Assembly: GCF_025398255.1 (NCBI RefSeq)
Contig: NZ_JAODNW010000013.1
Location: 1-64,000, forward strand
Source of the DNA: Chelativorans intermedius
GTDB lineage: Bacteria > Pseudomonadota > Alphaproteobacteria > Rhizobiales > Rhizobiaceae
Reading direction: 5' to 3'
Length of the DNA: 64,000 nucleotides
Within the stretch, counting starts at the first letter, position 1, and each line of letters begins with the position of its first letter. The notes below the pieces were generated by a model. The model did no database searches. It was not told the DNA's origin and was given only the letters and a program-made list of their open reading frames with translations. This document shows positions 41,958 through 60,154 of the stretch, in pieces. A program made the translations under genes and the position numbers.

Positions 41958-42875
41958 TCAGCCCGAACGGCGCTGCTGCTTCAGCCAGTCGCGCATCTCG
42001 ATGATCCATTCGTAGCGCGGATGGTCCACCTCGACATAGCCTCTGCCGGTCGACGTCTCGCCGCCATCCATCTGGCGGAAGGCTTCCGGGTCCTTCTCCG
42101 GCACGGCAAGCACCGCCTTCTTCATATCCTCGATCAGCGCCTCGGGCAGGTTGGCCCGCGCGGTGAAGGGGCCGGAGGTGATCTCCGGCGACTGCCAGAT
42201 GGGGCAGACGGCACCCTCCTCGATCATGCCCTTGGCCACCATGCGCTGGGGAATGCCGTTGACCTCGTTGTTCTGATAGGTGGCGGCGGCGTCGTATTGC
42301 CCGTTGACCACCCCCAGAACGCCGCTTTCATGGGCGCCGGAGAAGGGTACGGCGCTGAAGTGGGTCTGCGGATCATAGCCCTGCTTGACAAGGTTGAAGA
42401 ACGGCACCGCATAGCCGGAGGTAGAGTCGGGATCGGCGAAGGCGAGCACCTTGCCCCGGAGGTCGTCGAGCGTTTCGTAACCGGAATCGCAGCGCACCAC
42501 GATGATCGAGTAGTAGCCGGTGGAGCCGTCCTGCTGTTGCTTCGTGACGAGCGGCACGACACCGCCATTCGTCTCCGTATAGGCGGCGGCATAAGAGGAG
42601 GAGCCGAGGAAGGCGAATTCGATCTGGTCGGCCGCCAGCGCCTGAATGACGCCGTCATAGGAGCCTGCGGTGAAGATCTCGATCTCCACGCCGAGCTCCT
42701 TCTCCAGATAGGTCTCGAACGCGGTGTAGCGCGCGATGCGGTCCTTCTCGTTCTCGCCCGACAGCACGCCGAACCGCAGAACCTTGTAGCTTTCCTTCCA
42801 TTCCTGCGCGACCGCGCCCGTGCAGGCAAGACCAGCCACAAGACCAGCGGCGATGGCAATGTGTTTGCGTTTCAT
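41958..42875 (-). CDS. phnD: PhnD, phosphonate-binding periplasmic protein
   Basis: 305 aa from the ATG at 42875 with SD AGGAGAG; an upstream ATG at 42908 lacks one. Signal peptide AIAAGLVAGLACTGAVAQ. Mature landmarks: LRFGVLSGENEKDRIARYTAFETYLEKELGVEIEIFTAGSYDGVIQALAADQIEFAFLGSSSYAAA, STSGYAVPFFNL, VNGQYDAAATYQNNEV. It binds phosphonates or phosphite for PhnCE. It follows phnC on the minus strand by 53 bp. Confidence 0.95.
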   Translation of the reverse strand: MKRKHIAIAAGLVAGLACTGAVAQEWKESYKVLRFGVLSGENEKDRIARYTAFETYLEKELGVEIEIFTAGSYDGVIQALAADQIEFAFLGSSSYAAAYTETNGGVVPLVTKQQQDGSTGYYSIIVVRCDSGYETLDDLRGKVLAFADPDSTSGYAVPFFNLVKQGYDPQTHFSAVPFSGAHESGVLGVVNGQYDAAATYQNNEVNGIPQRMVAKGMIEEGAVCPIWQSPEITSGPFTARANLPEALIEDMKKAVLAVPEKDPEAFRQMDGGETSTGRGYVEVDHPRYEWIIEMRDWLKQQRRSG

Positions 42876-42928
42876 CTCTCTCTCCTGTGTTCGGCCCGGA
42901 CCGGGCACTTGAAACGGGACGAGTGCGC

Positions 42929-43750
42929 TCAGGCCGCCTCGGTGCGGGCCGGTTGCCGCGGGCGGCTGAGGGGGATGGCGGTGGAGGTGACGCGTTCATC
43001 CACCTCGGCCTCAAGGCCATCCGTGCCGTAGATCTCGCGTACCCGCGCTTGGGTGAGTTCTTCGGCAGCCCCGTCGAAATGGACCTTGCCTTCACGCATG
43101 GCCACGATGCGCTCGCAATAGGAGCGGGCTGTGTCGAGTGTGTGCAGGTTGACCAGAACGGTGATCCCGTCCTCCCGGTTGATCGCCTTGAGCGTTTCCA
43201 TCACCCGCGCGGCATTGGCCGGATCGAGCGAGGCGATGGGCTCGTCCGCCAGGAGAATCTTCGGGTTCTGCACCAGTGCCTTGGCAATGGCCACGCGTTG
43301 CTGCTGGCCGCCGGAGAGCGTGCCCGCCCGCTGCAGGGCCTGGGGGAGGAGATCGACCCGTTCGAGTGCGCGAACGGCGCGCGCTCGGTCCAGCTCGCTG
43401 AAATGAAGCACCATGGACGACAGGAACCCCTGATGGGCAACCCGCCCGATCAGGACGTTGGTCAGCACATCCATGCGCTCCACGAGGTTGAATTGCTGGA
43501 AGATCATGGCGCAGGAAGCGCGCCACAGGCGCAGCTCGCGGCCCCTCAGATGGGTGATCTCGCAGCCGCAGAAGCTGATCTTGCCCGCCGAGGGGTCGAT
43601 CAGCCGGTTGATGAGGCGCAGCAGGGTGGACTTGCCGGCCCCAGAGCGGCCGATGATGCCCACCATCTGCCCCGGCTCAATGCGAAGAGAGACGTCATCG
43701 ACCGCCAATATGTCGCCGAACTTCTTCGTTATCCCCCGTATCTCAAGCAT
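42929..43750 (-). CDS. phnC: PhnC, phosphonate ABC transporter ATPase
   Basis: 273 aa from the ATG at 43750 ([13 protein letters not shown]), placed 6 bp from SD GGGAGAG; the ATG at 43756 directly abuts it. Walker A GRSGAGKS at 34-41, [20 protein letters not shown] (PhnC hallmark), signature LSGGQQQR, Walker [13 protein letters not shown], and [14 protein letters not shown]. It is the first gene of the minus-strand phnCDE1E2-acetyltransferase run. Its AT-rich leader holds two palindromes. Confidence 0.95.
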
Positions 43751-43819
43751 AGACATCTCTCCCGGTGCGTCTATCTTCATTCTTCGGAGTTTATTATTCT
43801 CATTTTTTATATTTATAGT

Positions 43820-43836
43820 TATCACTGGCAGTGATA
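43820..43836. promoter_or_regulatory. 17-bp palindrome upstream of phnC
   Basis: TATCACTGGCAGTGATA has perfect 8-bp arms around one central G. It lies 70 bp upstream of the phnC start within a 233-bp AT-rich gap. Half-site TATCACTG resembles lambda-type cI operator half-sites, but no cI-like gene is in the window. It is a probable protein-binding site; the binder is unknown. Confidence 0.4.
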
Positions 43837-43983: not shown

Positions 43984-45225
43984 TCAGAGGTCTGGGGTGG
44001 TGTTGGCAGGCCCTTGGGGGGTCTGCGGGTGTGCGGCCGCCCGCGCCACCGTGCGCAGGGTGTCGATAAACTCGCGCTGCAGGGCGGTCGGAAGCCAGCG
44101 CTTGCGGGTGGTGATGCCGATCGCGAGGCCCGGATCGTCCACCTCGAAGTCGAGCGGCGAGAGGAAGCCGGCCTGCATCTCATAGTCGATCTGGAGGGGG
44201 GAGAAGAGCGCCAGATGATCCGATTCCATCAGGATGCCGCGCGCCACGCCGAGGGAACCTGTCTCCACGCTGCGCAAGGCGGGCTTTCCCGGTGGAAAGC
44301 GGCTGGCAAGCGCGGTGAAGACCGCGCGCGAGGGCGTGCCCTCCCGCGCCATGACCCACGGGTACTCCGCAAGGTCGGAAACATCCAGATTGCGGCGCCC
44401 GGCGAGCGGGTGGCCGGCCCGCGCCACCACCGACAGGCGATAGGTGAACAGCTCCTCCTGTTCCAGCGTGCTCGATGCCAGATGGGGGCGCAGCGCCCCC
44501 ACCAGAATGTCGATGCGACCCATCTCCAGGTCGCGCAGCAGCGCCTCGTAGCGGCCCTCGGCGATCGAGAAACTGGCGAGTGCGTGGCGCGCACCGACGG
44601 CCGTGATCGCCCGTGGCACGATGCCGGTACGCGCCAGCGGCAGGGTGCCGAGCGCCACATGGCCCTCGAAGCGGCCGCGCAGCTCGCGGATCTCGGCTGC
44701 GGCGTTGTCCAGTTCGTTGAGTGCCAGGCGTGACCAGCGCGCCGCTGAAAGCCCGGCACTGGAAAGCCGGATGGCCCGGCCCGAACCCTCGAAGAGCGGT
44801 GTGCGCAAGGTGGCTTCGGCATCGCGCGCCGTACGGTGCACGGCAGGTTCGGATTGCCTGAGGATGCGGGCAGCCGCGCTGAAGCTGCCGCCTTCGGCAA
44901 AGGCGGCGAGAGCGCGCAGATGCGGCAGGGTCAGCCGCGTCTCCGCCGCCTGTCCGCCTCCCGGGCCGCGCAGGCGCGCAACTCCCGTGCGGATCAGCTC
45001 CAGCGCCCGCTGGGCACGGGCATGCACGATCCGGCCTTCGGGCGTGGCGCGGGCAGTGCCGCTCCTCGTGTCGATGAGCGGTGCGCCGAAGATGGCCTCC
45101 ATCCGCGCAAGCCCCTGCGAGGCTGCCGGTTGCGTGACGCCGATCTGCTCGGCAGCGCGGCTCATCGAGCCGAGCTGAACGCAGGCACAGAACAGCCTTA
45201 TGTGGCGCAGATTGGGATAGCTCAC
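43984..45225 (-). CDS. LysR-family regulator with two tandem HTH domains
   Basis: 413 aa, about 100 longer than usual LysR proteins. Residues 4-65 form one LysR wHTH (NLRHIRLFCACVQLGSMSRAAEQIGVTQPAASQGLARMEAIFG). A second LysR-like HTH follows at ~98-165 (LTLPHLRALAAFAEGGSFSAAARILRQSEPAVHRTARDAEATL). The effector domain starts near 190 (RGRFEGHVALGTLPLARTGIVPRAI) and runs to the end. It lies 33 bp downstream of the MetF-like gene on the same strand, so it probably belongs to the aromatic O-demethylation cluster. GbpR-like regulators with extra N-terminal HTHs are known, but this is uncommon. Confidence 0.9.
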   Translation of the reverse strand: MSYPNLRHIRLFCACVQLGSMSRAAEQIGVTQPAASQGLARMEAIFGAPLIDTRSGTARATPEGRIVHARAQRALELIRTGVARLRGPGGGQAAETRLTLPHLRALAAFAEGGSFSAAARILRQSEPAVHRTARDAEATLRTPLFEGSGRAIRLSSAGLSAARWSRLALNELDNAAAEIRELRGRFEGHVALGTLPLARTGIVPRAITAVGARHALASFSIAEGRYEALLRDLEMGRIDILVGALRPHLASSTLEQEELFTYRLSVVARAGHPLAGRRNLDVSDLAEYPWVMAREGTPSRAVFTALASRFPPGKPALRSVETGSLGVARGILMESDHLALFSPLQIDYEMQAGFLSPLDFEVDDPGLAIGITTRKRWLPTALQREFIDTLRTVARAAAHPQTPQGPANTTPDL

Positions 45226-45258: not shown

Positions 45259-46188
45259 CTATGCGGCACCCGGTTCGCGCTGGCGCGCGGCGTAGGCATT
45301 GGCCCATTCCGCCGCCGCGCGCACACCCCCGAGGGGGAAGATGTGAACCTGCTCGAAAAGGCTGTCCGGCCGGGTGGCCCGGTATGCTGCAAGCTCGGAA
45401 AGCATGACGGTCGGTTCATAGGGAAGCATCAGTTTGCGGACATCCATGGCCCGCTTCTGAAGTACCCTAAGCGACGGCCCCACGCCACAGGCCAGGGCGT
45501 ATTTCATAAGCGTCTGCAGCTTGGCCGGGCCCGCAACGCCCACGTGGATGGGCAGGGTGATCCCCATGCGCGCGAGCCTCTCGCTCCAGGCGATCAGCGG
45601 TGCGGCATCGAAGAGAAACTGCGTGACGATGGCCATCCTGGCGTCGCTGTGCCGCTGCGCAAAGTGCTGTTTCCAGCGCAGTGCCTCGTCGGCCCGCCGG
45701 GTCGAGCCGTCGGGGTCGATGTCACGGCTGCCTTCAGGATGGCCGGCCACATGCAGGTGGGAGAAGCCGAACCTGTCGAACAGCCCGGTCTCCAGAAGCG
45801 CCATCGAGCTGTCGAACGCACCCACCGGGCGCCTTCTGCCGCCCGCCAGCACCAGCGCCCTTTCGACGCCGGCCTCCTCCCTGTAGCGGCCGATCCAGGT
45901 TTCCAGCATGCGCCGGTCCTCGATGAGGCGGGCCGGGAAATGCGGCATGACCGCGAAGCCCTCTTCTGCCAGCCGTCGCGCTGTCGTCACCATCGCGTCG
46001 ATCGGCGTGCCCTCAATATGCGCTATGTATACGAGAGTGCCTCTGGGAAGCAGGGTAGAAAAGGACTTCACCTTTGCGGCAGTGCGGGGTACGACCTCGA
46101 TCGAATATCCGGAAAGAAGCTCGCAAAGCCCGGAATGGATGGGGTTTTCGTTGCCGGCACGTCGGTTCGGGAAGTTCAGCAGGGTCAC
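45259..46188 (-). CDS. Methylenetetrahydrofolate reductase (MetF)-like protein
   Basis: 309 aa from a GTG at 46188, fixed by the strong SD AAGGAGGAG 7 bp upstream; upstream ATGs have none and lie beyond an operator-like palindrome. MTHFR barrel: SIEVVPRTAAKVKSF, EGTPIDAMVTTARRLAEEGFAVMPHFPARLI, then ALVLAGGRRRPVGAFDSSMALLETG, and MAIVTQFLFDAAPLIAWSERL. It is shorter and more divergent than housekeeping MetF. As in the ligM-metF setting of Sphingobium SYK-6, it probably recycles the methyl-THF formed by the O-demethylases at 46458 and 55459. No ligH-like formyl-THF ligase is in the window. Confidence 0.85.
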   Translation of the reverse strand: MTLLNFPNRRAGNENPIHSGLCELLSGYSIEVVPRTAAKVKSFSTLLPRGTLVYIAHIEGTPIDAMVTTARRLAEEGFAVMPHFPARLIEDRRMLETWIGRYREEAGVERALVLAGGRRRPVGAFDSSMALLETGLFDRFGFSHLHVAGHPEGSRDIDPDGSTRRADEALRWKQHFAQRHSDARMAIVTQFLFDAAPLIAWSERLARMGITLPIHVGVAGPAKLQTLMKYALACGVGPSLRVLQKRAMDVRKLMLPYEPTVMLSELAAYRATRPDSLFEQVHIFPLGGVRAAAEWANAYAARQREPGAA

Positions 46189-46212
46189 GGTGGTTCTCCT
46201 CCTTGCATTCAT

Positions 46213-46226
46213 TAATGTATACATTA
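46213..46226. promoter_or_regulatory. TGTATACA operator-like palindrome, MetF-like gene
   Basis: TAATGTATACATTA is a perfect 14-bp palindrome 24 bp upstream of the GTG start of the MetF-like gene. The same TGTATACA core recurs 28 bp upstream of the LigM-like gene (56900-56907) and 30 bp upstream of the GntR gene (57818-57827). Position and repetition suggest binding by the GntR regulator. Confidence 0.6.
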
Positions 46227-46398
46227 TGAGCACGTGACGGAAAACCCACTTGCCGACGAAAGGCTGCGCCCCACCGGCGAAGACCGTGCGGGGAGGGGGC
46301 CTGGAAGGATCGGCGCGCCACCAGCGTCCCCGCTGCTGCAGGGCGGCGAGAGGATGGCTTGCAGGGTAAAGGGGTGCCGGGCAGGAGGCGGCACATGA

Positions 46399-46441
46399 CC
46401 GGCGCCGGCGGGCTTTCGCGCTGCGATCCCGCCGGCGCCGG
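46399..46441 (-). terminator. Strong GC hairpin after the O-demethylase gene
   Basis: Arms CCGGCGCCGGCGGG (46399-46412) and CCCGCCGGCGCCGG (46428-46441) are exact 14-bp complements with a 15-base loop, 17 bp past the stop of the O-demethylase gene on the minus strand. No clear U-tract follows, so intrinsic termination is not assured, but the stem should block 3' exonucleases and may insulate the MetF-like transcript. Confidence 0.5.
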
Positions 46442-46457
46442 CCGCCCCCCGGCTTTG

Positions 46458-47834
46458 TTACTTCCGCGCGCGGTAGGTGCGGCGCGAAGCCTCGTGAATG
46501 GGCCAGGGATGCACGGTGGCGCCGATCTCCGTCTGCCGGTGCCGTTCGACGGCGGGCTTGCGGGTGCCACCCTCCGCCTCTCCCCAGATCACGGTGAGAT
46601 GTGTTCCGGGCTGCGAAAGCTTCTCCTCGACCGTGGCAAGCGAAATCCAGGCGCGTTCGTTGGCGGTGTATACAGGATAGGTCGAGATGCCCACGGTGCG
46701 TCCGTCGCGCACCACCCTGTCATAGGGGTGGGCGGCGTAGTGGGCGGCGGGCATCTCCATCAGCTTGGGCATCATCTCGCCCTCCTCCATCAGCCCGGCA
46801 TAAACCTTCAGCACGTCCTGCTTGTCCCACACGAGGGTGACCTTGCGGCGATGCGGCCCGCCGGCCATTCTCTCCAGCGCCTCGCGGCCGATGAAATCGT
46901 GGTCGAAGCGGATCATTCGGCCATAGTCTAGGTCCCACGGCGTCAGGTAATAGTCTTCCACGTTCTCGGACTGGAAGCTGCCGCCAATGGAACACACGGC
47001 CTCGAAGCTGGTTGCCGGCAGCCATTCGCGATAGGGTCTCATCTTCTCGCCCGTATAGATGGCCGGCAGAGGGGAGGGGATCCAACCCGACTCCATGGCC
47101 ACTGTCGAGTAGGCCCGGGCGCCGGCCTGCCGCAGGCCGTGTTCCTGGCCCGCCTCGATGAGGGCGGCCTTGACCTTCGGCCCCTCCTCGGCCGGTCCCC
47201 ACAACTCCAGCCCTGGCGCGCCACCCATGCCGTGGGCCAGCGTGCGCGCCCGGCAGCCGGCAATCGTGATCTCGCCCATGTGGAAGAACCGGGTGGTCAG
47301 CGGCCCGCCCTCGTTCACCGCTTCCAGTATCTTCATCGCATTCGGCCCCTGAACCTCGTAGCGGTAGGTCTTGCGGGGCTTGCCAGGCTCGTCGGCGGTG
47401 CGCTCGTCGCGCTCCACGGTCACATCGTAGCCGCCGGTCTCGGCATGGAACTGCACCCAGTTTGGCACGGGCGGGCGGCCGACAAGGCTGACCAGGTCGT
47501 CTTCCAGGCCGAACAGGATCACATCGCCGATAACATAGCCGTCATGATTGCAGCAGACGAACTGCTTGGCCTTGTTGCGGCCGAAATTCTGGAAGCTGTT
47601 GATGCCAAGATGCGACAGCAGGCGCACCACATCCGGCCCTTTTACGTACAGATCCGTCATGTGAAAGGACTGGTCGAAGAGCACGGCCGTCTCGCGCCAG
47701 GCACGCTGCTCCTCGATCCAGTTGGTGAACTCGGGCGCAATGGGATAGACATAGCGCCCCGCTGGCGCGTTCTGCAGCATCAGTGCCGGGTTGCCGAGTG
47801 CCTGCAGCTTCTCTTCGAGCGAGCTGTAGCTCAT
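46458..47834 (-). CDS. LigM/DesA-like tetrahydrofolate-dependent aryl O-demethylase (paralog 1)
   Basis: 458 aa, GcvT-fold family, with the length of LigM (471) rather than glycine cleavage T protein (~370). Landmarks shared with LigM: YVYPIAPEFTNWIEEQRAWRETAVLFDQSFHM, GAPGLELWGPAEEG, ESGWIPSPLPAIYTGEKMRPYREWLPATSFEA, IRFDHDFIGREALE and VIWGEAEGG. His58, Arg120 and Tyr242 align by eye with LigM His60, Arg122 and Tyr247 (numbers from memory), which bind and activate vanillate. It would move an aryl methyl group to THF. It is clearly diverged from the copy at 55459, e.g. QSFHM versus QSHHM. Overlaps the next gene by 4 bp. Confidence 0.87.
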   Translation of the reverse strand: MSYSSLEEKLQALGNPALMLQNAPAGRYVYPIAPEFTNWIEEQRAWRETAVLFDQSFHMTDLYVKGPDVVRLLSHLGINSFQNFGRNKAKQFVCCNHDGYVIGDVILFGLEDDLVSLVGRPPVPNWVQFHAETGGYDVTVERDERTADEPGKPRKTYRYEVQGPNAMKILEAVNEGGPLTTRFFHMGEITIAGCRARTLAHGMGGAPGLELWGPAEEGPKVKAALIEAGQEHGLRQAGARAYSTVAMESGWIPSPLPAIYTGEKMRPYREWLPATSFEAVCSIGGSFQSENVEDYYLTPWDLDYGRMIRFDHDFIGREALERMAGGPHRRKVTLVWDKQDVLKVYAGLMEEGEMMPKLMEMPAAHYAAHPYDRVVRDGRTVGISTYPVYTANERAWISLATVEEKLSQPGTHLTVIWGEAEGGTRKPAVERHRQTEIGATVHPWPIHEASRRTYRARK

Positions 47835-48763
47835 TGCGAACCTCCTCCGTTTCCTGGTTCCCGCTGCGCCAGCCGTGCGCGCAGCACGGCGCCGAGATCC
47901 TCGGCAAGCGCCTGCGCCCGCGGCGGCGGCACCTGTGCGCGGCCCATCCGCTCCTCCACCTCGGCGATTTCCTCAGCGAGCCTGCCGTGCAGGCCCAGTT
48001 CGCGCACTGTGGCGGCACACTCGCGCATTTCCGCAGCGCGCCGCCGCCCGTGGCGCAGTGCGCGCTCGAACTCGTAGGCCGCGAAGTCTGGCCAGCCGAG
48101 GCCCGCGAAATCGCGCGCCAGCGAGTGCGTCACGCTTTCAAGGCAACCCGACGCTTCGGCAGCCAGAAGTGCCTCGATGGTGATCGCCTCCAGCCCCTTC
48201 ACGAACAGCGAGCGTGCCATCTTGACGGCCGTCGCCGCCCCGGTCTCCGCCCCCGCCACCTCGTGGCTGAAGCCGAGATTGTCGAGCGCCGGGACGAGCC
48301 GTTCTGCCGCAGGGCCGGCGATGAGCACGGGCGTGCGATGCTTGCGCGGGTGCACCGGCGCCATGATCGCCATGTCGAGATAGTGCGCCCCCTGCGCCTC
48401 GACGAGCGCCGCTGCCGCGCGCTTGCGCCCCGGCGAGACCGAGTTGACGTCGATGAGCAGCCGCGCTGGGCGCAGGTACGGGGCAAGCCGCTGCACCGCT
48501 GCCAGGCTCTGGTCCGCCGTTACCGCGCTGATGATCCAATCCGCCTTTGCCAGCGCCGCCGGATTCTCGGCCACCTCGACCCCGCGCCGGTGCATCGCCG
48601 AGCGCATCTCGCCGGCGCTGCCGGGCTCGTCGAGCAGAATGTCATAGGCACGGAAGGAAAGGGCTGGATCGTGCGTGGCGAGGCTTTCCTGAAAGGCGCG
48701 CGCAGCCTCTCCGAAGCCAAGGAAGGCGATGCTCTGCGGTTTTTGCGAAGGAAGGACGTTCAT
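47831..48763 (-). CDS. NAD(P)-dependent dehydrogenase, 6PGDH/HIBADH-like with DUF1932
   Basis: 310 aa from the ATG at 48763 (MNVLPSQKPQ). N-terminal Rossmann FLGFGEAARAFQ; WIISAVTADQSL and the beta-hydroxyacid signature region DVNSVSPGRKR; Lys in MARSLFVKGLEAITIEALLAAE; then a DUF1932-like helical C-terminus. Members of this superfamily oxidise or reduce short hydroxyacids. Its job in the aromatic cluster is unknown; it might handle a side product of ring cleavage or a C2-C4 hydroxyacid. Its 3' end overlaps paralog 1 (ATGA). Confidence 0.82.
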   Translation of the reverse strand: MNVLPSQKPQSIAFLGFGEAARAFQESLATHDPALSFRAYDILLDEPGSAGEMRSAMHRRGVEVAENPAALAKADWIISAVTADQSLAAVQRLAPYLRPARLLIDVNSVSPGRKRAAAALVEAQGAHYLDMAIMAPVHPRKHRTPVLIAGPAAERLVPALDNLGFSHEVAGAETGAATAVKMARSLFVKGLEAITIEALLAAEASGCLESVTHSLARDFAGLGWPDFAAYEFERALRHGRRRAAEMRECAATVRELGLHGRLAEEIAEVEERMGRAQVPPPRAQALAEDLGAVLRARLAQREPGNGGGSQ

Positions 48764-48946
48764 CGGGAAAACACCATTCTCCTGCGGCGATTGGCCTGTG
48801 CACGGCATTCCCCACGGGCTGGACGGCCCGCCGGGAGGGCGCAGCACCGCAGGACACCGCCCGTGCGGTCGTCCTCGACCGGATGCACCGCGGCAACGCC
48901 TGGCCGGTTCGTACAGCGGAGGGGGAGGACGCGGTTCGTCATGCTC

Positions 48947-50002
48947 TCAGGCGAAGACATGCCCCTCGAACAGCTTTCGTGCGGTGCGCAGGACGGCGGC
49001 GCGCTTGATGGCGCCCTGCGCGTCGAGCGTGGCAATCACCGTCATCTCGCCGCTGGGATGCTCGATGGAGAGGGTGCGTTCGCGGCCCTGACCGGTGCTG
49101 GCCATGGCCGCGGCGGGACTGCCTTCGATAAGGCAGGCGGTCGCCACGCTGACCGCACCGAGCACGCCGATCGAGGCGTGACAGCGATGCGGGATGAAGG
49201 TGCGCGTGGCGATGGCACCGCCATGGCGTGGTGGGGCGATCATCGTCATCTTTGGTACCGACTTGCGCGAAACGTCGCCGAGATTCATCATCGGCCCGGC
49301 CTTGAGGCGGATCGCCTCCAGCCTGCCGCGCAGGCCTTCGTCGGCATCCAGCGCCTCCCGCGTCTCCTCGCCGGTTATGCCGAGGTCGGCCGCGCGCAGG
49401 ATAACGCAGGGCATGCCGTTGTCGATCAGGGTGGCCTCCACCCCGTCGATCACGTCCACCGCGTTGCCGGTGGGCAGGAGCGCGCCGCAGGAGGAGCCGG
49501 CGGTGTCCTCGAACGCGATGGGGATGGGAGCGGCCGTGCCCGGCACGCCGTCGATGCGGGCTGCCCCTTCATAGGTGACCCGGCGGCCCGGCGTGCAGAC
49601 CGTCGCCACCGCCGTCTGGCCCGTGTTCTCCATGTGGATGCGCACGTCCGTGGTCCCCTCCCGCGCCTCCACGAGGCCGCGCTCGATGGCGAAGGGGCCG
49701 ACGCCGGCCAGGATATTGCCACAGTTCTGCGCGTCGGTGACGATGGCCTGATCGACGAAGACCTGCAGGAAGAGGTAGTCCACGTCCACGCCGGGGCGTC
49801 GCGAGGGCCTGACCACTGCCACCTTGGAGGTGAGCGGGTCGGCCCCGCCAAGACCATCGATCTGGCGCGGATCGGGTGAGCCCATGATGCGCAGCAGAAG
49901 CGCATCGCGCGCTGCCGGGTCGGAGGGCAGGTCCGAAGCCAGGAAATAGCCGCCCTTTGAGGTGCCGCCCCGCATCCAGAAGGCCGGGATTTTTTCAGAC
50001 AT
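48947..50002 (-). CDS. galD: 4-oxalomesaconate tautomerase (GalD/PrpF-fold)
   Basis: 351 aa from the ATG at 50002; it overlaps the end of the aldolase gene by 8 bp. PrpF-family isomerase opening [16 protein letters not shown], then [36 protein letters not shown] and [15 protein letters not shown]. In the gallate pathway GalD interconverts the keto and enol forms of 4-oxalomesaconate so that GalB can hydrate it. The two genes beside it fit GalC and GalB, which makes this assignment stronger than for an isolated PrpF homolog. A 183-bp gap without genes separates it from the dehydrogenase. Confidence 0.82.
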
Positions 50003-50666
50003 ATGTGAGGCCTTTGTTTTTGAGTTTCTGTCGCATGTCGTAGATGTCGAGGCCGAGTTCGCCGTTTGCGAGCCTTTGGCGTTTTTGCTCTTCTGCGGCG
50101 TTTCGGCGTCGGGCGGCATCGAGCACGGTTTCGGCGTCCTGGCGGGGCACCACGCACACGCCGTCGTCGTCGGCGACGATGACGTCGCCCGGATGGACGA
50201 GCGCGCCGGCGCACACCACCGGCACATTGACCGAGCCCAAGGTCTCCTTCACCGTGCCCTGCGCGAAGATCGCCTTTGCCCAGACGGGAAAGCCCATCCG
50301 CGTCAGCGCGGCCACGTCGCGCACCCCCGCCTCGATGACGAGGCCGCGGCAGCCGCGCGCCATGGCCGAGGTGGCCAGCAGGTCCCCGAAATAGCCGTCC
50401 TGGCAGGGGCTGGTGGGCGCCAGCACCAGCACGTCGCCCGGCCGCACCTGCTCGATGGCCACATGCAGCATCCAGTTGTCGCCCGGCGGCGCGGAGATGG
50501 TGACCGCCGAGCCGGCCAGCCGCGCGCCGGCGAAGATCGGCCGCATGTGGGCGGCAAGAAGCCCCTTGCGCCCCTGCGCCTCGTGCACCGTGGCCACCCC
50601 GCATTCGCCCAGGCCCGCCACCACTTGCGGGTCGGCGCGCGCGATCTTCTGCACCACCACGCCCAT
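49995..50666 (-). CDS. galC: 4-carboxy-4-hydroxy-2-oxoadipate aldolase (LigK/GalC, RraA-like)
   Basis: 223 aa from the ATG at 50666, coupled to the previous stop as TGATG. RraA-fold aldolase landmarks: [45 protein letters not shown], and [28 protein letters not shown] with the conserved Arg-Asp. LigK/GalC-type enzymes cleave CHA to pyruvate and oxaloacetate and can also decarboxylate oxaloacetate. The placement between GalB- and GalD-like genes supports that role. The C-terminus LKNKGLTYV is typical of the group. Confidence 0.88.
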
Positions 50667-51394
50667 CACAGCCCATCCACCGTTCTGGGAAACACCGCCT
50701 GGAAGGCCTCCGCATAGCGCGCCTCCCGTCCCCCCGCCTGGCCGCCGGAATTGCGGCGGAACTGGTTGGCCCGGTTCTCCGCCACGCGGGTGTAGTAGTC
50801 CCAAAGGTGCTGCTGGCCCTCCATGCACTCAATGGCCGCACGCTTCTGCTCCCACACCTCGGTGATGTCGAGCAGGGTGTCCGGCTTCCAGCCGCATTGC
50901 TCGCTCTGGTGCGGCTCGAAGAGGTAAAGCTGCGGCGCCCCCAGAACCGTCTCGCCCGGATTGTGACCCCAGGCCTGGGCGATCATCCGGCACTCCAGCG
51001 CCACCCGCGTCGCATAGGGGTGGTCGGTGTTGTAGGGGTCCTCCAGCGAGTGCGAAAGCATGAAGGCAGGCTGCACCTGGCGGATCACCTCGACAAGCCG
51101 GTACTTCGCCTCCCGATCCAGCTCCAGCGGATAGTCGCCAAGGTCGAAAAACCGAATGTCGTGCGCCGCAAGCGCCGCCGCCGCCTTCTCCGCCTCCCGA
51201 CGACGCGACGCCTTCACGCGATCCAGCGTCATCCCCTCCTCCTTCCAAAGGCGCGCGCTCTCTCCACGCTCCCCATACGAAAGGCAAACAATCGTCACAT
51301 CAAAACCGCGACGCCCATGAAGCGCGATCGCACCCCCGCAACGCCAAACAAAATCCGCCGAATGGGCGCTCACGACCAATGCAGTATTTCTCAT
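50666..51394 (-). CDS. galB: 4-oxalomesaconate hydratase (GalB-like, PIG-L family)
   Basis: 242 aa from the ATG at 51394 with SD AGGAGC. PIG-L/LmbE zinc motif [12 protein letters not shown] with His11 and Asp14, and a third ligand His125 in [13 protein letters not shown]. Most PIG-L proteins are deacetylases; GalB of P. putida is a member that hydrates 4-oxalomesaconate to CHA. Position directly before the GalC-like aldolase, with a shared stop/start base, favours hydratase. A deacetylase on an acylated aromatic is the alternative. Confidence 0.84.
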
Positions 51395-51403
51395 GTCAAG
51401 CTC

Positions 51404-52378
51404 CTAGTCCTTTCCCGCCGGGGTCTCGATCGGCGGTGTGCCGTGTGTGTGGAAGGATTCGATGGTCTTCAGCCCCCAGGCCTGGCCGCGTCTGCGTTCG
51501 GCCTCCGTCCAGACGACGGGTTGCCAGTCGGGATCGAGCACCAGCCGCGCCCCGGCATTGGCGACCTCCACCCGGTTCCCGGCCGGTTCGTAGACATAGA
51601 GGAAGAACGTGCCCTGAATGGCGTGCTTGTGGGGGCCGGTCTCGATGAAGACTCCGTTTTCGAGGAAGATGTCGGCCGCCCGCAGAATCTCGTCGCGGTG
51701 ATCGGCGGCGTAGGTGACGTGATGGAAGCGGCCTCGGGCGCCGGAATGGTCCTCCGTGCAGGCCATGTCATAGCCCTTGTTGTTGACGGTGAACCAGCAG
51801 CCGCCAAGGCGCCCGTTGTCGAGCCGGATCATCTCGGTGACGCGGCTGCCCAGGGCTTCGACCATGAAGTCGCGCATCTTCGACACGTCCGAGGCCAGCA
51901 GGTTGAAGTGGTCGATCCGTCGCGGCGCCGCTCCGCGCCCGTGAAAGCGCTGGGCGATGTTCTTGAGCGCTGGCTTCTCGCCTTCCGGCGCGACATATTT
52001 TCTCGTCTCCCAATAGAGCTCGAAGACGTGTCCGTCCGGGCTCCTGAAGCGATAGGACGGCCCGTGGCCGAGATCGCCATCCGTCCAGCCGATGCCGAGC
52101 CCCATCTCCTCGATCACCTTCACGCGCCGATCGAGCGCGGCCTGCGACGAGGTACGGTATGCGCAGTGCCCCATGCCGGTCGTCTGCGAGCGCGTCAGCT
52201 TCAGCGTATGGAATTCGTAGTCGTCCCAGGCGCGCAGATAGACGGAGTTTTCGTCGCGCCCGCTTTCTGTGAGCCCGTAGACGCGCACGAAGAAGTCGAG
52301 GCTTTCCTCGAAGCGGTTCGTCAGGAGCTCGACATGGCCGAGATGCGCGACATCGAAGCAGGGTTCCTTCACTTTCAT
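51404..52378 (-). CDS. VOC-family type I extradiol ring-cleavage dioxygenase
   Basis: 324 aa, two VOC repeats. Metal ligands of XylE (His153, His214, Glu265) match His157 in RIDHFNLL, His220 in RFHHVTY and Glu271 in GNRVEV. XylE His246 and Tyr255 match His252 and Tyr261, but XylE His199 (acid-base) is replaced by Tyr203 (KGYDMAC). It would cleave a catechol-type ring beside an OH. It is the only ring-cleavage gene in the cluster, next to galB/C/D-like genes. Start is uncertain: SD AAGGAGA abuts the ATG at 52378, and the GTG at 52372 has better spacing. Confidence 0.9.
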   Translation of the reverse strand: MKVKEPCFDVAHLGHVELLTNRFEESLDFFVRVYGLTESGRDENSVYLRAWDDYEFHTLKLTRSQTTGMGHCAYRTSSQAALDRRVKVIEEMGLGIGWTDGDLGHGPSYRFRSPDGHVFELYWETRKYVAPEGEKPALKNIAQRFHGRGAAPRRIDHFNLLASDVSKMRDFMVEALGSRVTEMIRLDNGRLGGCWFTVNNKGYDMACTEDHSGARGRFHHVTYAADHRDEILRAADIFLENGVFIETGPHKHAIQGTFFLYVYEPAGNRVEVANAGARLVLDPDWQPVVWTEAERRRGQAWGLKTIESFHTHGTPPIETPAGKD

Positions 52379-52399
52379 TCTCCTTTGCAATGCCTCGCC

Positions 52400-53704
52400 T
52401 CAGCGGATCATCGTGTCGGGCAGGAAGAGGGCGATTTGCGGAAAGCTGACGAGCAGGATGAGCGCCACCAGCATGGCTCCCCAGAAGGGCAGCACGCCCT
52501 GGAAGATCTTGGCGAGCGGAACGTCCTGTGCCACCAGCTTCACGATGAAGACATTGACGCCCACCGGCGGCGAGATGAGCCCCATCTCCAGCGTCACGAC
52601 CACGAGCACGCCGAACCAGATCGGGTCGAAGCCAAGCGACGTGACGAGCGGAAAGAAGATCGGCATCGTCAGCACCAGCATCGCAAACCCCTCGATGAAG
52701 CAGCCGAGGAAGAGATAGCTGGCGAGGATGATTGCCAGAATCGACAGGTTGGAGATCTCCAGGCCCGTCAGCAGCGCTCCGACGGCCTGCGGAATCTGGC
52801 TGAGCGCCAGAAAGGGGTTGAGCAGGTGCGCGGCGATCAGGATCAGCATGACGGTCGCCGTCGTGACCACGGAGTCCTTGAGCGCCTGCCACAGGAGCGC
52901 GGCGGTGAGCCTTCGCATCAGCGCCCCCAGGAAGATCATCAGCCCGGCGCCGACGGCAGCCGCCTCGACGGGCGAGAAGATGCCGCCATAGATGCCGCCG
53001 ATGGTGAGCAGGATGACGCCCAGCACCGGCGCTGCCCCTGCCAGCGCCGCGAATTTGGCCCGGAGCGACGTGCGCGGGCCAGCCGGGCCGAGCTGCGGGC
53101 GCAGCCAGCACAGGAAGCTGATGAGAAGCACGAACAGGCTGAGCAGCAGCAGGCCCGGCAGGACCCCCGCAAGGAAGAGACGCCCGATCGACTGGTCGGT
53201 CAGGATGGCATAGATGACGAAGCCCGTGGATGGCGGGATCAGGATGCCGAGCGTGCCGCCCGCCGCGACGGCGCCGGTGGACAGGCGCGGATCGTAGCCG
53301 AAGCGCTTCATCTCGGCCAGCGAGACCTTGCCCATGGTGAGCGCCGAGGCGACCGAGGAGCCGGAAAGCGCGGCGAAGCCGCCACAGCCGATGACCGTAG
53401 CCGAGGCCAGCCCGCCGCGGATCGGGCCGATGACGGCATAGGCCGCGTCGTAGAGCCGGCTGCTCATGCCCGTCGCAGAGGCGACATTGCCCATCAGGAT
53501 GAACAGTGGCACCACCACCAGCTCCGCCGAGGAGGAAAGGGTGAAGGTCTCCGATGCGAGCAGGCTCATGGCCGCCGGCAGGCCATTGAGGATGGCGATA
53601 CCGACGAAGCCGACCGCAAACATCGCAAAGGCCACCGGCACGCGCAGCATGAGCAGCGCGAGCAGGACGAGCATGCCCAGCCCGCCGATTGCCATGGGGC
53701 TCAT
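52400..53704 (-). CDS. TRAP transporter large permease (DctM)
   Basis: 434 aa with ~12 hydrophobic segments and the family motifs SGSSVASALTMGKVSLAEMKRFGYD, AAGGTLGILIPPSTGFVIYAILTDQSIGRLF and MGLISPPVGVNVFIV. It is the ion-coupled transport subunit. It overlaps dctQ by 4 bp (ATGA). Position beside the aromatic cluster suggests uptake of an aromatic acid or similar carboxylate. Confidence 0.94.
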   Translation of the reverse strand: MSPMAIGGLGMLVLLALLMLRVPVAFAMFAVGFVGIAILNGLPAAMSLLASETFTLSSSAELVVVPLFILMGNVASATGMSSRLYDAAYAVIGPIRGGLASATVIGCGGFAALSGSSVASALTMGKVSLAEMKRFGYDPRLSTGAVAAGGTLGILIPPSTGFVIYAILTDQSIGRLFLAGVLPGLLLLSLFVLLISFLCWLRPQLGPAGPRTSLRAKFAALAGAAPVLGVILLTIGGIYGGIFSPVEAAAVGAGLMIFLGALMRRLTAALLWQALKDSVVTTATVMLILIAAHLLNPFLALSQIPQAVGALLTGLEISNLSILAIILASYLFLGCFIEGFAMLVLTMPIFFPLVTSLGFDPIWFGVLVVVTLEMGLISPPVGVNVFIVKLVAQDVPLAKIFQGVLPFWGAMLVALILLVSFPQIALFLPDTMIR

Positions 53705-54204
53705 GCGGGTTCCTCGCGAATGTCACGCCCGGCCACCAGCAGTTCCACGGCGCGCAGCGCCATGCCGAGGGCAGCGATGACGCTGAACCCGGACAACGCC
53801 CACTGGAAGTAGACCTTGGGAAGGTTGATGACGTTGGTCGACAGGTTGAGCAACTGCGACAGCTTCGAGGACTCGTAGACGGTCCAGGCAATGCCCAGGA
53901 AGAGGCACATGCCGAGAATGGCGCTGGCGACATCGCCGGCCCGCCTGAGCCAGAGGGGAAAGCGCGTCTCGAAGATGTCCACGGCGATGTGGCCGCCCAG
54001 CCGGTCGCACAGCGCCATGGCGCCGAAGACGAGGACGACCATGGCCATTTCAGAAACGTCGCGTGCGCCCGCCAGCGGCCGTCCGAAATAACGGCCGGTG
54101 ACGTCTGCCAGGATCACCGCGACCTCGACGACAAGCCCCAGCGCGCCGATGGTGGCGGCCAGTCCGATCAGCCTGTCGGCAAGCCAGCGCAGCCTCGCGA
54201 GCAT
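53701..54204 (-). CDS. TRAP transporter small permease (DctQ)
   Basis: 167 aa with four hydrophobic segments (LIGLAATIGALGLVVEVAVILADVTGRYF first) and the DctQ motif GARDVSEMAMVVLVFGAMALCDRLGGHIAVDIF. It links the binding protein to DctM. The gap to dctP is 6 bp. Confidence 0.93.
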   Translation of the reverse strand: MLARLRWLADRLIGLAATIGALGLVVEVAVILADVTGRYFGRPLAGARDVSEMAMVVLVFGAMALCDRLGGHIAVDIFETRFPLWLRRAGDVASAILGMCLFLGIAWTVYESSKLSQLLNLSTNVINLPKVYFQWALSGFSVIAALGMALRAVELLVAGRDIREEPA

Positions 54205-54210
54205 GGCGCA

Positions 54211-55212
54211 CTACTCTCCGCGCATGGCAGCCAGCACCTCTTCGGCGCCCATCTCGGCAATGAGCCGGTCGGTGACCGGAAGGGTCAGCTCGGCGAATGC
54301 CTGGACCTCCTCCTCCGTCAACTCGATGACCGTGTTGTCGCCGGTCTCGCGCAGCTTCTCTACCGTCTCGGTGGCGCGCGCATTCCACGCCTCCTCCCCG
54401 CTCCTCGACAGGCCGATGCCGCTGTGCGCGTCGATCGCCGACCGGAACTCCTCGGGCAAGGCGTCGTATCGCGCCTGGTTCATCACGAGATAGAAAGAGA
54501 TGTGGCCGAGCGGCGGCCCGATGGTGTAGCTGTCGGCCACCTCGTCGAGCTTGAAATCGGCGACCGCACTGGCGCCGGTGATCAGCCCGTCGATCAGCCC
54601 GGTCTGCAGCGAGTTGTAGATCTCCCCCGCCGGCATCTGCACCGGCGTGGCGCCCAGCGCCTCGACCACCGCGCCGGCGATGGCGCCCGACACGCGGATC
54701 TTCAGGCCCTTGATGTCGGCGGGCGTGCGGATCTCGCGGCCCTTGGTGATGATGATATTCGGCTCGGAAACCCAAAGGGCGAGCGGCTTGGTGCCCGGAT
54801 ATTCGTCCTTCAGATGCGTCTCGTAGGCATTCCAAAGCATCTCATAGCCGCTCATGCCCTCGGGGATCGCACCTGGCATCTCCACGATCATGGTCTTGGG
54901 AAACTGCGAGGAGGTGTATCCCTGCAGGCCCCATGTGATGTCCGCCACGCCCTGCAGTGCCCGCACATACTGCTCCATCGGCCCGGCACCGAGCTCGCCG
55001 CCCGGATAGACCTCGATGGTCAGGGCGCCGTCGGTATCCTCGGCCACGCCCTTGACCAGCGGATCGACCACCGAGGAATTGACGACATGGGTGGGCGAGA
55101 CGAAATGCGCCAGCTTCAGGGTCTCTGCCACCAGCGGACCCGTAGTCAGCACGGTGGCAAGCCCGGCGGCGGCAAGGCGCGTCACGGCGCCGGATAGGGG
55201 TGTGTTCAACAT
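54211..55212 (-). CDS. TRAP transporter solute-binding protein (DctP)
   Basis: 333 aa from the ATG at 55212 with SD GGAGGAG. Signal peptide to ~AETLK. Landmarks: LKLAHFVSPTHVVNSSVVDPLVKGV, GELGAGPMEQYVRALQGVADITWG, GLKIRVSGAIAGAVVEALGATPVQMPAGEIYNSLQTGLIDG with the ligand-carboxylate Arg (KIRV). It binds an organic acid for DctQM. It starts the TRAP-VOC-gal run, and the 246-bp gap upstream may hold the promoter. Confidence 0.94.
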   Translation of the reverse strand: MLNTPLSGAVTRLAAAGLATVLTTGPLVAETLKLAHFVSPTHVVNSSVVDPLVKGVAEDTDGALTIEVYPGGELGAGPMEQYVRALQGVADITWGLQGYTSSQFPKTMIVEMPGAIPEGMSGYEMLWNAYETHLKDEYPGTKPLALWVSEPNIIITKGREIRTPADIKGLKIRVSGAIAGAVVEALGATPVQMPAGEIYNSLQTGLIDGLITGASAVADFKLDEVADSYTIGPPLGHISFYLVMNQARYDALPEEFRSAIDAHSGIGLSRSGEEAWNARATETVEKLRETGDNTVIELTEEEVQAFAELTLPVTDRLIAEMGAEEVLAAMRGE

Positions 55213-55458
55213 CGCTGCTCCTCCCTCATTGCTTCTTGCCGGCCCCGATACCGATAGGCCCAAGGGCCGGACGGGAAGACTAGTGCATCGCAGCGCGAGG
55301 AGCGAATTGGTTCTGCATTCAGACCATAAGATTTACCTATAGACGTGATGAGAAAAATACCTTCATGCCCCTTCACGCAAAAGATACGGGCTCCTTCAGA
55401 AGAAGGAATGGGTATATATGGTGCGCTGTTCTGCCCGCCGTGAGGCGGCGGGCCTCTG
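55213..55458. other. 246-bp intergenic region with likely TRAP operon promoter
   Basis: The gap lies between the LigM-like stop and the dctP start. It is AT-richer than its surroundings near 55310-55360. No TGTATACA core or convincing -35/-10 pair was found, so the TRAP/gal run may be under a different control from the two LigM/MetF units. No gene is seen. Confidence 0.3.
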
Positions 55459-56871
55459 TCAGCCGTGCTGCCTGGTGCGCCAGCTTTCCGCGTAGTTCTC
55501 GCGCGCCATGCGCGAATAGGGGATCGGCGAGACGCGCACGCGGATTTCCGCCTGCCTGTGCCGTTCCGTGGAGGTCTTCGCGCTGCCGCCGTCGGGTTCG
55601 CCCCACACCAGCGTAAGCACGTCGCCCTCCTTGATGTCGGGATCGACGATACCGAGCGAGAGCATGCAGCGTTCGTTGAAGCTGTAGCCGTTGAACATCG
55701 AGAGCCCCACCACACGCTCGCCCAGCATTACCCGGTCGAAGCCGGAGGACGAATAGTTGGGCTGCGGGAAGTCGATCCACTTGGCATTCGTCTCGCCGGG
55801 CTTCAGGCAGGACGCCATGACCTTGAGAATGTCCTCGGCGTTCCACTCGAAGGTGACCTTCCTGCGGTGTGGCGTGTCCTTCATCTTTTCGAGCGCCGCG
55901 CGGCCCACGAAATCATGGTCGAACTTGATATAGATGCCGTAACCCAGCTCGAAGGGGGTGGTGTAATAGTCGCGGATGTCGTCGGAGACGAAGCTGCCGC
56001 CGATGGAGCAGGTTGCCTCATAGCTGTCCGCCGGCAGCCACTCGCGATAGGGGCGCAACGCCTCGCCCGTATAGATGGCCGGCAGGGGCGAGGGAATCCA
56101 TCCCGATTCGACCGTGTTGGTGGAATAGGCACGCGCCCCCACCTGGTGCAGGTCGACGCCGGCCGCGTCCGCCGCCTCGAGGATGGCTGCGCGCACGTCG
56201 TCCTTCTCCTCGTAGGGGCCCCAGATCTCAAGCCCCGGCGCGCCGGCCATGCCATGGCGCAGCGCGCGCACCCGCCGCCCGGCGACATTGATCCAGTCGA
56301 CGTGGAAGAACTTGATCTGCGGCAGAGGTCCGCCATGCATCCGTTCCAGAACCTTGGGCGCGTCCGGGCCCTGGATCTGGAAGCGGTAGTGAACGCGCGT
56401 CACCGCCTTGCCGTCGGGCCGGGAGGGCGAGCGCGGATCGCGCGTCACCGCCACCTCGTGCTTACCGAGCGAGGCGTTGTACTGCACCCAGTTGGCGGTC
56501 GGCGCGCGGCCCACCAGCACGAACCTGTTCTCCTCCTCGCGGAAAATGATCATGTCGCCAATCACGTAACCTTCCGGCGAGACGGGCACGAAGTGCTTGG
56601 CCCTGTTGGTGGAGAAGTTGGAGAAACTGTTGATCGCAAGCCCCTCCAGAAATCGCGCCGCATCCGGGCCTTCGACGATCAGCTCGTCCATGTGGTGCGA
56701 CTGGTCGAACAGCACGGCCGATTCCCGCCAGGCGCGCTGCTCGTCACGCCAGTTGGTGAACTCGGAGGCGACAACGGGGTATACATACATGCCGATTCTG
56801 GAGTTGCGTAGCACCGGCACGATATTCCCTGCTTCCTCGATGATCCCTTGCAGGCTGGGCTTCCTGGCCAT
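55459..56871 (-). CDS. ligM: LigM-like tetrahydrofolate-dependent aryl O-demethylase (paralog 2)
   Basis: 470 aa from the ATG at 56871 with SD AGGGAGGA; LigM of Sphingobium SYK-6 has 471. It is very LigM-like along its length (LRNSRIGMYVYPVVASEFTNW, VLVGRAPTANWVQYNASLG, RALRHGMAGAPGLEIWGPYE, ESGWIPSPLPAIYTGEALRPYREWLPADSYEA). His60, Arg122 and Tyr249 match the substrate-site residues I recall from LigM. It should demethylate vanillate, 3-O-methylgallate or a related methoxybenzoate, giving 5-methyl-THF. A TGTATACA site lies 28 bp upstream. Confidence 0.9.
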   Translation of the reverse strand: MARKPSLQGIIEEAGNIVPVLRNSRIGMYVYPVVASEFTNWRDEQRAWRESAVLFDQSHHMDELIVEGPDAARFLEGLAINSFSNFSTNRAKHFVPVSPEGYVIGDMIIFREEENRFVLVGRAPTANWVQYNASLGKHEVAVTRDPRSPSRPDGKAVTRVHYRFQIQGPDAPKVLERMHGGPLPQIKFFHVDWINVAGRRVRALRHGMAGAPGLEIWGPYEEKDDVRAAILEAADAAGVDLHQVGARAYSTNTVESGWIPSPLPAIYTGEALRPYREWLPADSYEATCSIGGSFVSDDIRDYYTTPFELGYGIYIKFDHDFVGRAALEKMKDTPHRRKVTFEWNAEDILKVMASCLKPGETNAKWIDFPQPNYSSSGFDRVMLGERVVGLSMFNGYSFNERCMLSLGIVDPDIKEGDVLTLVWGEPDGGSAKTSTERHRQAEIRVRVSPIPYSRMARENYAESWRTRQHG

Positions 56872-57055: not shown

Positions 57056-57787
57056 TCAGTTCAGCACCAGCGCCAGGCCCGGCACGCGCCCGGCAAGGCC
57101 GCCGTGCTCCGTGACGAAATATTCGAGATTGGTGCGCGCCGCCCGCGCGTGCTCGCGTGCCAGCGCTTCGGCCCGCGCCCCCTCGCGCGCTTCGATGGCT
57201 GCGACGATCGCCCTGTGCTGCGCCTGGTTTGCGATCAGCGAGGTGCGGAAGTTCGGATTGTAGACCCTGTCGGGCAGGAACGCGGTGGGCGAGGCGAAGG
57301 GCAGCCGGTTGACCCGCTCGATCTCGCGCTGCACCACCTCGCTGCCGGAGAGCGCGGCAAGCTCCTGATGGAAGCGCCCGTTGAACTCCCGATAGCCGTC
57401 GAGGTCCACGTCGCCCGGCTCCGTGCCGAAGCAGCGGTCGAGCGCCTGAAGCGTCTTGTGGATACGCTTGAGGGCCGCCGGTTCGGCGCCCCGCTCGGCC
57501 GCCAGCCGCGCCGCGGTTCCCTCCAGAACGCCGCGCAGTTCGATGGCATCGACGACGTCCTTGAAACGGAAGCTGCGCACCAGGAACCCACCGCCCGGCG
57601 CACGGTCGAGAAGTCCCTCCTCGGCAAGTCGCGACATCGCCTCGCGCACGGGCGTGCGCGAAATTCCCAGCTCCTCCGCCAGCGGCACCTCGAACAGGCG
57701 GGTGCCGCCGGCCAGGCTGCCGTCAAAGATCCGCTGCCGCAGCTCGATCATCGCCCGCATCGTGTGGGTCTTGCTCGAAGACTTTTC
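57056..57787 (-). CDS. GntR-family regulator, FadR/FCD type
   Basis: 243 aa from a TTG at 57787 (GGAA 5 bp upstream); an ATG at 57760 would also keep the whole HTH. wHTH at ~10-75 (MIELRQRIFDGSLAGGTRLFEVPLAEELGISRTPVREAMSRLAEEGLL), then an all-helical FCD domain with metal/ligand positions (FNGRFHQELAALSGS, QAQHRAIVAAIEAREG). FCD regulators sense carboxylic acids such as aromatic or dicarboxylic acids. A TGTATACA site lies upstream of its start, suggesting self-regulation, and the same core precedes the LigM- and MetF-like genes. Confidence 0.9.
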   Translation of the reverse strand, partial: EKSSSKTHTMRAMIELRQRIFDGSLAGGTRLFEVPLAEELGISRTPVREAMSRLAEEGLLDRAPGGGFLVRSFRFKDVVDAIELRGVLEGTAARLAAERGAEPAALKRIHKTLQALDRCFGTEPGDVDLDGYREFNGRFHQELAALSGSEVVQREIERVNRLPFASPTAFLPDRVYNPNFRTSLIANQAQHRAIVAAIEAREGARAEALAREHARAARTNLEYFVTEHGGLAGRVPGLALVLN

Positions 57788-57817
57788 CAAGGCCGTTCCA
57801 TCCGCATTCCCTGCAGC

Positions 57818-57827
57818 ATGTATACAT
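57818..57827. promoter_or_regulatory. TGTATACA operator-like site, GntR gene
   Basis: ATGTATACAT, a perfect 10-bp palindrome, 30 bp upstream of the likely GntR start on the minus strand. Third copy of the core in the cluster; points to autoregulation. Confidence 0.55.
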
Positions 57828-57939
57828 CGCAGGACGATTCGGCGCCATTGCCTTGTTCGCAAAAGGGGCACCAGCCCGGGGCGTGGCTGCCGGAGGGCGC
57901 CAACCCTTTCATGGGGTGCCCTCGTCAGCCGCAGGTGGC

Positions 57940-59625: not shown

Positions 59626-59665
59626 CAAAGCAATCGCGGCAACGAGCGACCTGAGGAGGGACCCA

Positions 59666-60154
<489 letters not shown>

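Follow-up and report, generated by a model that had tools for sequence, protein, structure and literature searches.

A 64,000-nucleotide stretch of the Chelativorans intermedius genome (NZ_JAODNW010000013.1, positions 1 to 64,000; the window) carries a run of minus-strand genes at 45259–56871 that is probably an operon for the catabolism of syringate, 3-O-methylgallate, and gallate. In this probable operon, a putative type I gallate dioxygenase of the vicinal oxygen chelate (VOC) family would replace the type II enzymes GalA, DesB, or LigAB. According to the proposed pathway, an aromatic acid would be imported by the TRAP system, and the DesA-like and LigM-like enzymes would convert syringate to 3-O-methylgallate and then to gallate, with transfer of the methyl groups to tetrahydrofolate. 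The resulting methyl-tetrahydrofolate would be recycled by the MetF-like protein. The VOC enzyme would open gallate between C4 and C5 to yield 4-oxalomesaconate, which GalD, GalB, and GalC would convert to pyruvate and oxaloacetate. The post-cleavage steps are assigned to predicted enzymes that score over curated cut-offs or are close to a solved enzyme, whereas genomic context suggests both the ring opening and the substrates. The order of the two demethylations is likewise putative.

A sequence-only reading of this region had proposed that the VOC enzyme opens the ring and that GalD, GalB, and GalC follow. This is the best-supported interpretation, given the lack of a LigB-type gene, the gene packing, and the presence of at least one gal gene near the VOC gene in 65 of 80 related loci. 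It is further based on the presence of galD elsewhere in the genome in all 15 remaining loci, the absence of LigB matches in 31 of 50 VOC genomes, and one locus with a tannase.

Gene content and packing of the locus

The minus-strand gene run spans 57871 to 43984, with regulators of the GntR and LysR type at its two ends. All genes listed by the sequence-only reading (two O-demethylases, a MetF-like gene, galB, galC, galD, a VOC gene, and a TRAP importer) were found on the minus strand between 45259 and 56871, the latter position being the ATG of the LigM-like gene. The GntR and LysR regulators and a DUF1932 dehydrogenase were found in addition. In the order of transcription, the genes are:

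57056–57871, minus strand: GntR/FCD regulator (PF00392, PF07729), first gene transcribed; start uncertain, ATG at 57760 possible
55459–56871, minus strand: LigM-like tetrahydrofolate-dependent vanillate/3-O-methylgallate O-demethylase (NF047885, 691.7 bits; PDB 5x1i, 571 bits)
54211–55212, minus strand: TRAP solute-binding protein DctP (PF03480; best PDB match 7nr2, 150 bits)
53701–54204, minus strand: TRAP small permease DctQ (PF04290)
52400–53704, minus strand: TRAP large permease DctM (PF06808)
51404–52378, minus strand: two-domain VOC (type I) extradiol dioxygenase, putative gallate dioxygenase (TIGR03211, 320.8 bits)
50666–51394, minus strand: GalB, gallate-pathway hydratase of PIG-L fold (PDB 5cgz)
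49995–50666, minus strand: GalC, 4-carboxy-4-hydroxy-2-oxoadipate (CHA) aldolase (NF006731, 391.5 bits, cut-off 179)
48947–50002, minus strand: GalD, 4-oxalomesaconate (OMA) tautomerase (NF033377)
47831–48763, minus strand: DUF1932/NAD-binding beta-hydroxyacid-dehydrogenase-like protein (PF09130, PF03446); open reading frame from 48847, ATG at 48763
46458–47834, minus strand: DesA-like O-demethylase, syringate-type by score (NF047633, NF047885)
45259–46212, minus strand: divergent MetF-like protein (PDB 7xg9)
43984–45225, minus strand: LysR regulator, PcaQ-like, with two tandem LysR-type helix-turn-helix domains (PF00126 in two stretches, PF03466)

The genes from dctP to galD are tightly packed. 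The gaps are 6 nt between dctP and dctQ, −4 nt between dctQ and dctM, 21 nt between dctM and the VOC gene (9 nt with a TTG start), 9 nt between the VOC gene and galB, about −1 nt between galB and galC, and −8 nt between galC and galD. None of these exceeds 21 nt, so the VOC gene is tightly enclosed by the importer genes on one side and galB on the other. Wider gaps follow the GntR gene (112–184 nt, depending on the start) and the genes for LigM (about 195–246 nt), GalD (99–183 nt), and DesA (about 224–245 nt), so additional promoters are possible. Consensus scans of the locus for promoters and terminators gave 1 and 8 hits compared to 1.3 and 7.0 in shuffled sequence, i.e., none above chance.

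The LigM-like protein exceeded the NCBIfam cut-off of 580 bits on NF047885. The protein encoded at 46458–47834 scored 638 bits on the DesA model NF047633 (cut-off 800) and 571.6 bits on the LigM model, which is below both cut-offs, and it is therefore designated DesA-like only. GalD scored 554.6 bits against a cut-off of 440, and GalC also exceeded the cut-off of the GalC/LigK model TIGR02798 (380.2 bits vs. 304.5). GalB matched PDB 5cgz, named 4-oxalmesaconate hydratase, which we take to be GalB of Pseudomonas putida, with 319.8 bits over nearly its whole length. The MetF-like protein is very divergent, with no Pfam match and 22 bits on TIGR00676, and it matched PDB 7xg9, named 5,10-methylenetetrahydrofolate reductase, with 155.7 bits. 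It presumably recycles the methyl group on tetrahydrofolate. The LysR regulator scored 206 bits on TIGR02424, below the cut-off of 303.8.

The VOC enzyme and its active site

The VOC protein matched PF00903 and not PF02900, and thus does not belong to the type II (LigB) superfamily. Its AlphaFold model (mean pLDDT 81.3, pTM 0.84, with a poor C-terminal part) retrieved type I extradiol dioxygenases in Foldseek, with 3lm4 as the best match (TM 0.86, 37% identity), and the predicted model has the two-domain VOC fold of these enzymes. The open reading frame has a TTG at 52390 and an ATG at 52378, and residues are numbered from 52390.

Active-site positions were mapped on homoprotocatechuate 2,3-dioxygenase (1f1x), with the numbering checked. 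The metal ligands His155, His214, and Glu267 of 1f1x correspond to H161, H224, and E275 of the VOC enzyme. In 103 sequences of the VOC family, H161 and H224 are conserved in all and E275 in 102, the remaining sequence having a gap, so the His-His-Glu site is retained. Trp192, His248, and Tyr257 of 1f1x correspond to W199, H256, and Y265. His200 of homoprotocatechuate dioxygenase is the second-sphere acid-base residue; the corresponding position is Tyr207 in the VOC enzyme and Tyr in 103 of 103 sequences, and the usual acid-base His is thus missing. The role of Tyr207 in the VOC enzyme is putative. Arg243 of 1f1x is replaced by Thr251 (101 Thr and 2 Ser of 103). His254 is invariant in the VOC family (103/103), with another residue at this position in all four PDB sequences. 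His occupies the 207 position in 7q2a, 3hpv, and 1f1x, and in the relatives L105, L106, L109, and L110. Tyr was found in eight further sequences at 59–82% identity (some already among the 103), and His in four at 30–46% identity.

The Tyr-bearing sequences (106 of the 113 in the tree) formed one clade with support 99/95, the long outgroup branches being flagged as unsure. The closest solved sequence, PDB 9wgj (named Catechol 1,2-dioxygenase; 391.9 bits), lies at the base of this clade and has Tyr at 207, but Leu251 and Ser254. No paper naming 9wgj turned up in the literature search.

Enzymes of this clade are currently annotated as catechol 2,3-dioxygenase or VOC family protein. The VOC enzyme scored 320.8 bits on the catechol 2,3-dioxygenase model TIGR03211, i.e., 0.6 bits over the cut-off of 320.2, as would be expected if the automatic annotation were right and an ordinary catechol 2,3-dioxygenase were encoded here by chance. 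This is very improbable, since the Tyr clade splits off with the above support, the relatives of ~46% identity keep His, and one of them is encoded in an annotated catechol-type operon: the Thermus thermophilus relative (46% identity) lies amid genes for acetaldehyde dehydrogenase, 4-hydroxy-2-oxovalerate aldolase, and a tautomerase. In addition, the association with galBCD spans Alpha- and Gammaproteobacteria and Thermus, and, to our knowledge, GalB, GalC, and GalD cannot process the meta-cleavage product of catechol. A plain catechol 2,3-dioxygenase was therefore rejected on gene context and Tyr207.

Ring-opening enzymes in the source genome

The assembly has a size of 4.18 Mb and is 99.97% complete, and the window is part of its contig C9. 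The sequence-only reading had noted the lack of a type II gallate dioxygenase, and the whole-genome check agrees with it: PF02900 (LigB family) had no match in this genome, while the same profile search matched 4 of 14 control genomes. The LigA search gave no match in this genome, and none in the control genomes either. One copy each of galD and of a VOC gene of this family (E up to 1e-20) was found. Contig C1 carries two adjacent PF00775 intradiol dioxygenase genes, read as a putative pcaGH pair, and two more genes of the methylenetetrahydrofolate reductase family, one canonical (308.7 bits) and one more divergent (249403–250281; 114.5 bits). Two LigI-like amidohydrolases of 35–36% identity are encoded on other contigs.

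The PF00775 pair also bears on the possibility that the VOC enzyme has a later pathway intermediate or a different catechol as its substrate, with gallate being opened by another enzyme, such as this intradiol pair. The Tyr in place of the conserved acid-base His, and the VOC genomes in which galD is missing, would fit such a role. We nevertheless regard it as quite unlikely, because the metal ligands are kept wherever the alignment column is filled, the predicted fold resembles 3lm4, most of the VOC genomes searched have no LigB match, and the VOC gene is packed directly beside galB.

As for the substrate, the sequence-only reading had left open syringate, 3-O-methylgallate, vanillate-derived protocatechuate, or another methoxylated aromatic acid. 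Gallate is preferred here as the ring-opening substrate and 3-O-methylgallate is possible, whereas the route via vanillate and protocatechuate is the least likely, because the PF00775 pair is present and this route needs LigC- and LigI-type steps, none of which was seen in the operon. The protocatechuate 4,5-pathway was considered unlikely on the same grounds, the LigI-like relatives in the genome being distant. Both the gallate dioxygenase activity of the VOC enzyme and its putative preference for gallate over 3-O-methylgallate are suggested by the gene context.

VOC loci in relatives

Of 195 loci with a VOC relative, the best 80 (71–91% identity) were compared for gene neighborhood. Neighbors were counted within 8 kb of the VOC gene (less at contig ends), with no correction for kinship between genomes. 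galB was present in 61, galC in 62, and galD in 62 of the 80 loci; at least one of the three was found in 65 and all three in 56. In the 15 loci lacking a nearby gal gene, galD over the cut-off was always present elsewhere in the genome (15/15), compared to 75 of the 297 genomes searched across the order. A LigM/DesA gene was found in 21/80 loci and adjoins the VOC gene in 10 of the 15 that lack gal genes nearby. A GntR regulator of this kind, assigned by clustering, occurred in 11/80. In Chelativorans sp. YIM 93263 (L011), the whole gene order is kept, except that MetF was not found. LigB matches were absent in 31 of the 50 VOC genomes searched (50 of the 80), and 8 of the other 19 had a LigB match above 140 bits. 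In Rhizobium johnstonii 3841, the VOC gene adjoins galB, galC, and galD, and the genome gave no match to PF02900.

A relative of the DUF1932 protein was found in 28/80 loci; this protein recurs with VOC-galBCD, the genera Pantoea, Thioclava, and Agrobacterium included. In 19/80 loci, mostly of Bosea, and in Pantoea piersonii, a protein of the cobalamin-independent methionine synthase II family (NF005085; L034:6886-7995) is encoded near the VOC gene. It may serve to accept the methyl group or act as a further demethylase.

The protein search returned 333 plasmid records with a VOC match at any level, of which 58 were at 60–80% identity. Among 14 Tyr-type plasmid regions inspected, 12 had one or more genes annotated as PIG-L/galB, CHA aldolase, or OMA tautomerase. 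On Agrobacterium tumefaciens pAt, the order galB-VOC-galC-galD is followed by the gene for a tannase (PF07519, 437.9 bits), a type of enzyme that liberates gallate from tannins. Pantoea piersonii has galBCD, DUF1932, LysR, and VOC genes, with an aromatic acid/H+ symporter gene in one strain. The VOC locus of Thermus oshimai contains galB- and galC-type genes and that of Nonomuraea a galC-type gene.

The association was also examined in 297 genomes of the order. Proximity was defined as within 10 kb, and VOC genes of at least 64% identity and galD genes over the cut-off were counted; one genome with the VOC gene in two pieces (G188), VOC relatives of ~46% and ~30% identity, galD matches below the cut-off, and LigB matches of less than about 142 bits were left out. 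The LigB counts in this comparison refer to the matches listed. The VOC gene was present in 44 genomes; 36 of these also had galD, and 22 of the 44 VOC genes lay within 10 kb of a galD gene. By genome, the odds ratio of the VOC-galD association was 24.7 (Fisher p 5e-18, kinship ignored). Of the 75 galD genomes, 36 had the VOC gene, 27 a strong LigB match, 12 both, and 24 neither. The 93 galD genes were near the VOC gene only in 19 cases, near a strong LigB gene only in 13, and near both in 3.

Several observations weigh against the proposed role. The loss of the usual acid-base His could mean another reaction. In eight VOC genomes (64–66% identity), which belong to a single family, no galD exceeds the cut-off. 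Among the matches listed, a LigB gene was found as well as the VOC gene at the 3 galD loci mentioned above, and 58 of the 93 galD genes were near neither, so galD alone is no pointer to the ring opener. The Roseomonas locus has a class III extradiol (LigB) gene besides the VOC gene, and 2 of the 14 plasmid regions (Pantoea At-9b and Chimaeribacter) have no gal gene. The tannase was found in only one of the loci examined. Finally, a LigI-like amidohydrolase is encoded near the VOC gene in 7/80 loci, so the substrate in those loci could be a pyrone-forming one, for example 3-O-methylgallate.

The last observation, together with the LigM/DesA genes that accompany the VOC gene with and without gal genes, would also fit an enzyme that mainly opens 3-O-methylgallate to the methyl ester CHMOD or to 2-pyrone-4,6-dicarboxylate, with LigM serving vanillate. 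According to PMC12314914, Pseudomonas sp. NGC7 opens 3-O-methylgallate without demethylation. However, the operon has no methylesterase or 2-pyrone-4,6-dicarboxylate hydrolase, the nearest LigI-like genes being the distant ones on other contigs, and in the stretches inspected no such demethylase accompanies the A. tumefaciens tannase locus or the Pantoea loci. We thus consider 3-O-methylgallate unlikely as the main substrate, and prefer ring opening of gallate. In one locus, a LigI-like amidohydrolase gene (PF04909; L090:5064-5936) precedes a GalB relative (53%) and the VOC gene; the genome of this locus is one of the eight that lack a galD above the cut-off. Such loci hint at a pyrone intermediate in some VOC relatives.

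Taken as a whole, the previously unassigned type I clade with Tyr in place of His is rather likely a gallate dioxygenase family with an origin separate from that of the LigB-type enzymes, and would function in gallate/syringate catabolism in Rhizobiales, Rhodobacterales, Pantoea, and some Thermus and actinobacteria.

Comparison with known systems

The locus shares GalB, GalC, GalD, LysR regulation, and the expected products pyruvate and oxaloacetate with the gallate pathway of P. putida KT2440 (galTAPR, galBCD). It differs by the VOC enzyme in place of GalA (type II, LigB superfamily) and by a TRAP importer instead of GalT/GalP. The tetrahydrofolate-dependent DesA-/LigM-type demethylases and the MetF-like protein are common to the syringate pathways of Sphingobium SYK-6 and Novosphingobium DSM 12444, whereas the ring openers named for those strains in the accessible text of PMC12314914 and PMC3962378 (DesB/DesZ/LigAB) are all type II. 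The syringate pathway of Pseudomonas sp. NGC7 (VanA1B1, MgaABCD, GalDBC) has the GalDBC end and GntR and LysR regulators in common with the locus, but uses oxygenase demethylation and MgaAB for the ring opening of 3-O-methylgallate.

The VOC enzyme has the two-domain VOC fold, the His-His-Glu site, Trp199, His256, and Tyr265 in common with AphC/3lm4 of Rhodococcus and with catechol 2,3- and homoprotocatechuate 2,3-dioxygenase. Its clade differs from these known type I enzymes by Tyr207 in place of the acid-base His, its own Thr251 and His254, and the galBCD context. PraA (protocatechuate 2,3-dioxygenase) belongs to type I and has a hydroxybenzoate as its substrate, so type I cleavage of hydroxybenzoates is not new in kind.

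The accessible parts of four papers on syringate and gallate catabolism name only LigAB, DesZ, DesB, GalA, and MgaAB as ring openers (PMC12314914, PMC8091115, PMC4250580, PMC3962378). AromaDeg assigns gallate dioxygenases to the LigB superfamily and the enzymes for 2,3-dihydroxybenzoate to type I. The type I catechol 2,3-dioxygenase of Bacillus ligniniphilus is reported to have decreased the phenolic content of gallic acid by 14% in 6 h (PMC9925492), and this enzyme is described as inactive on pyrogallol and protocatechuate (PMC8671467). No report of gallate ring opening by a VOC enzyme in these bacteria was found in openly licensed PubMed Central papers, part of the queries being weak. In the papers that could be searched, a family specialized in gallate, with Tyr instead of His and encoded alongside galBCD, thus appears to be unreported.

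Other genes of the window

Phosphonate ABC transporter genes are located at 40096–43825, with PhnC and PhnD over their cut-offs and permease-like open reading frames at 40096–40956 and 40958–41941. The plus strand at 59600–62596 encodes the small and large subunits of a molybdenum hydroxylase.

Implications

If the proposed function is true, it would explain how gallate could be used without the textbook gene by many bacteria living in soil, in association with plants, or in the sea. Searches of genomes for the degradation of gallate and syringate rely on ring openers of the LigB type, as did the survey of homologues in PMC12314914, and would therefore class organisms that have the VOC route as unable to degrade these compounds. 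The Tyr-for-His exchange would parallel, in nature, the His200 variants of homoprotocatechuate dioxygenase made in the laboratory, for which solved structures exist, and would allow the handling of a trihydroxy substrate by type I enzymes to be tested directly.

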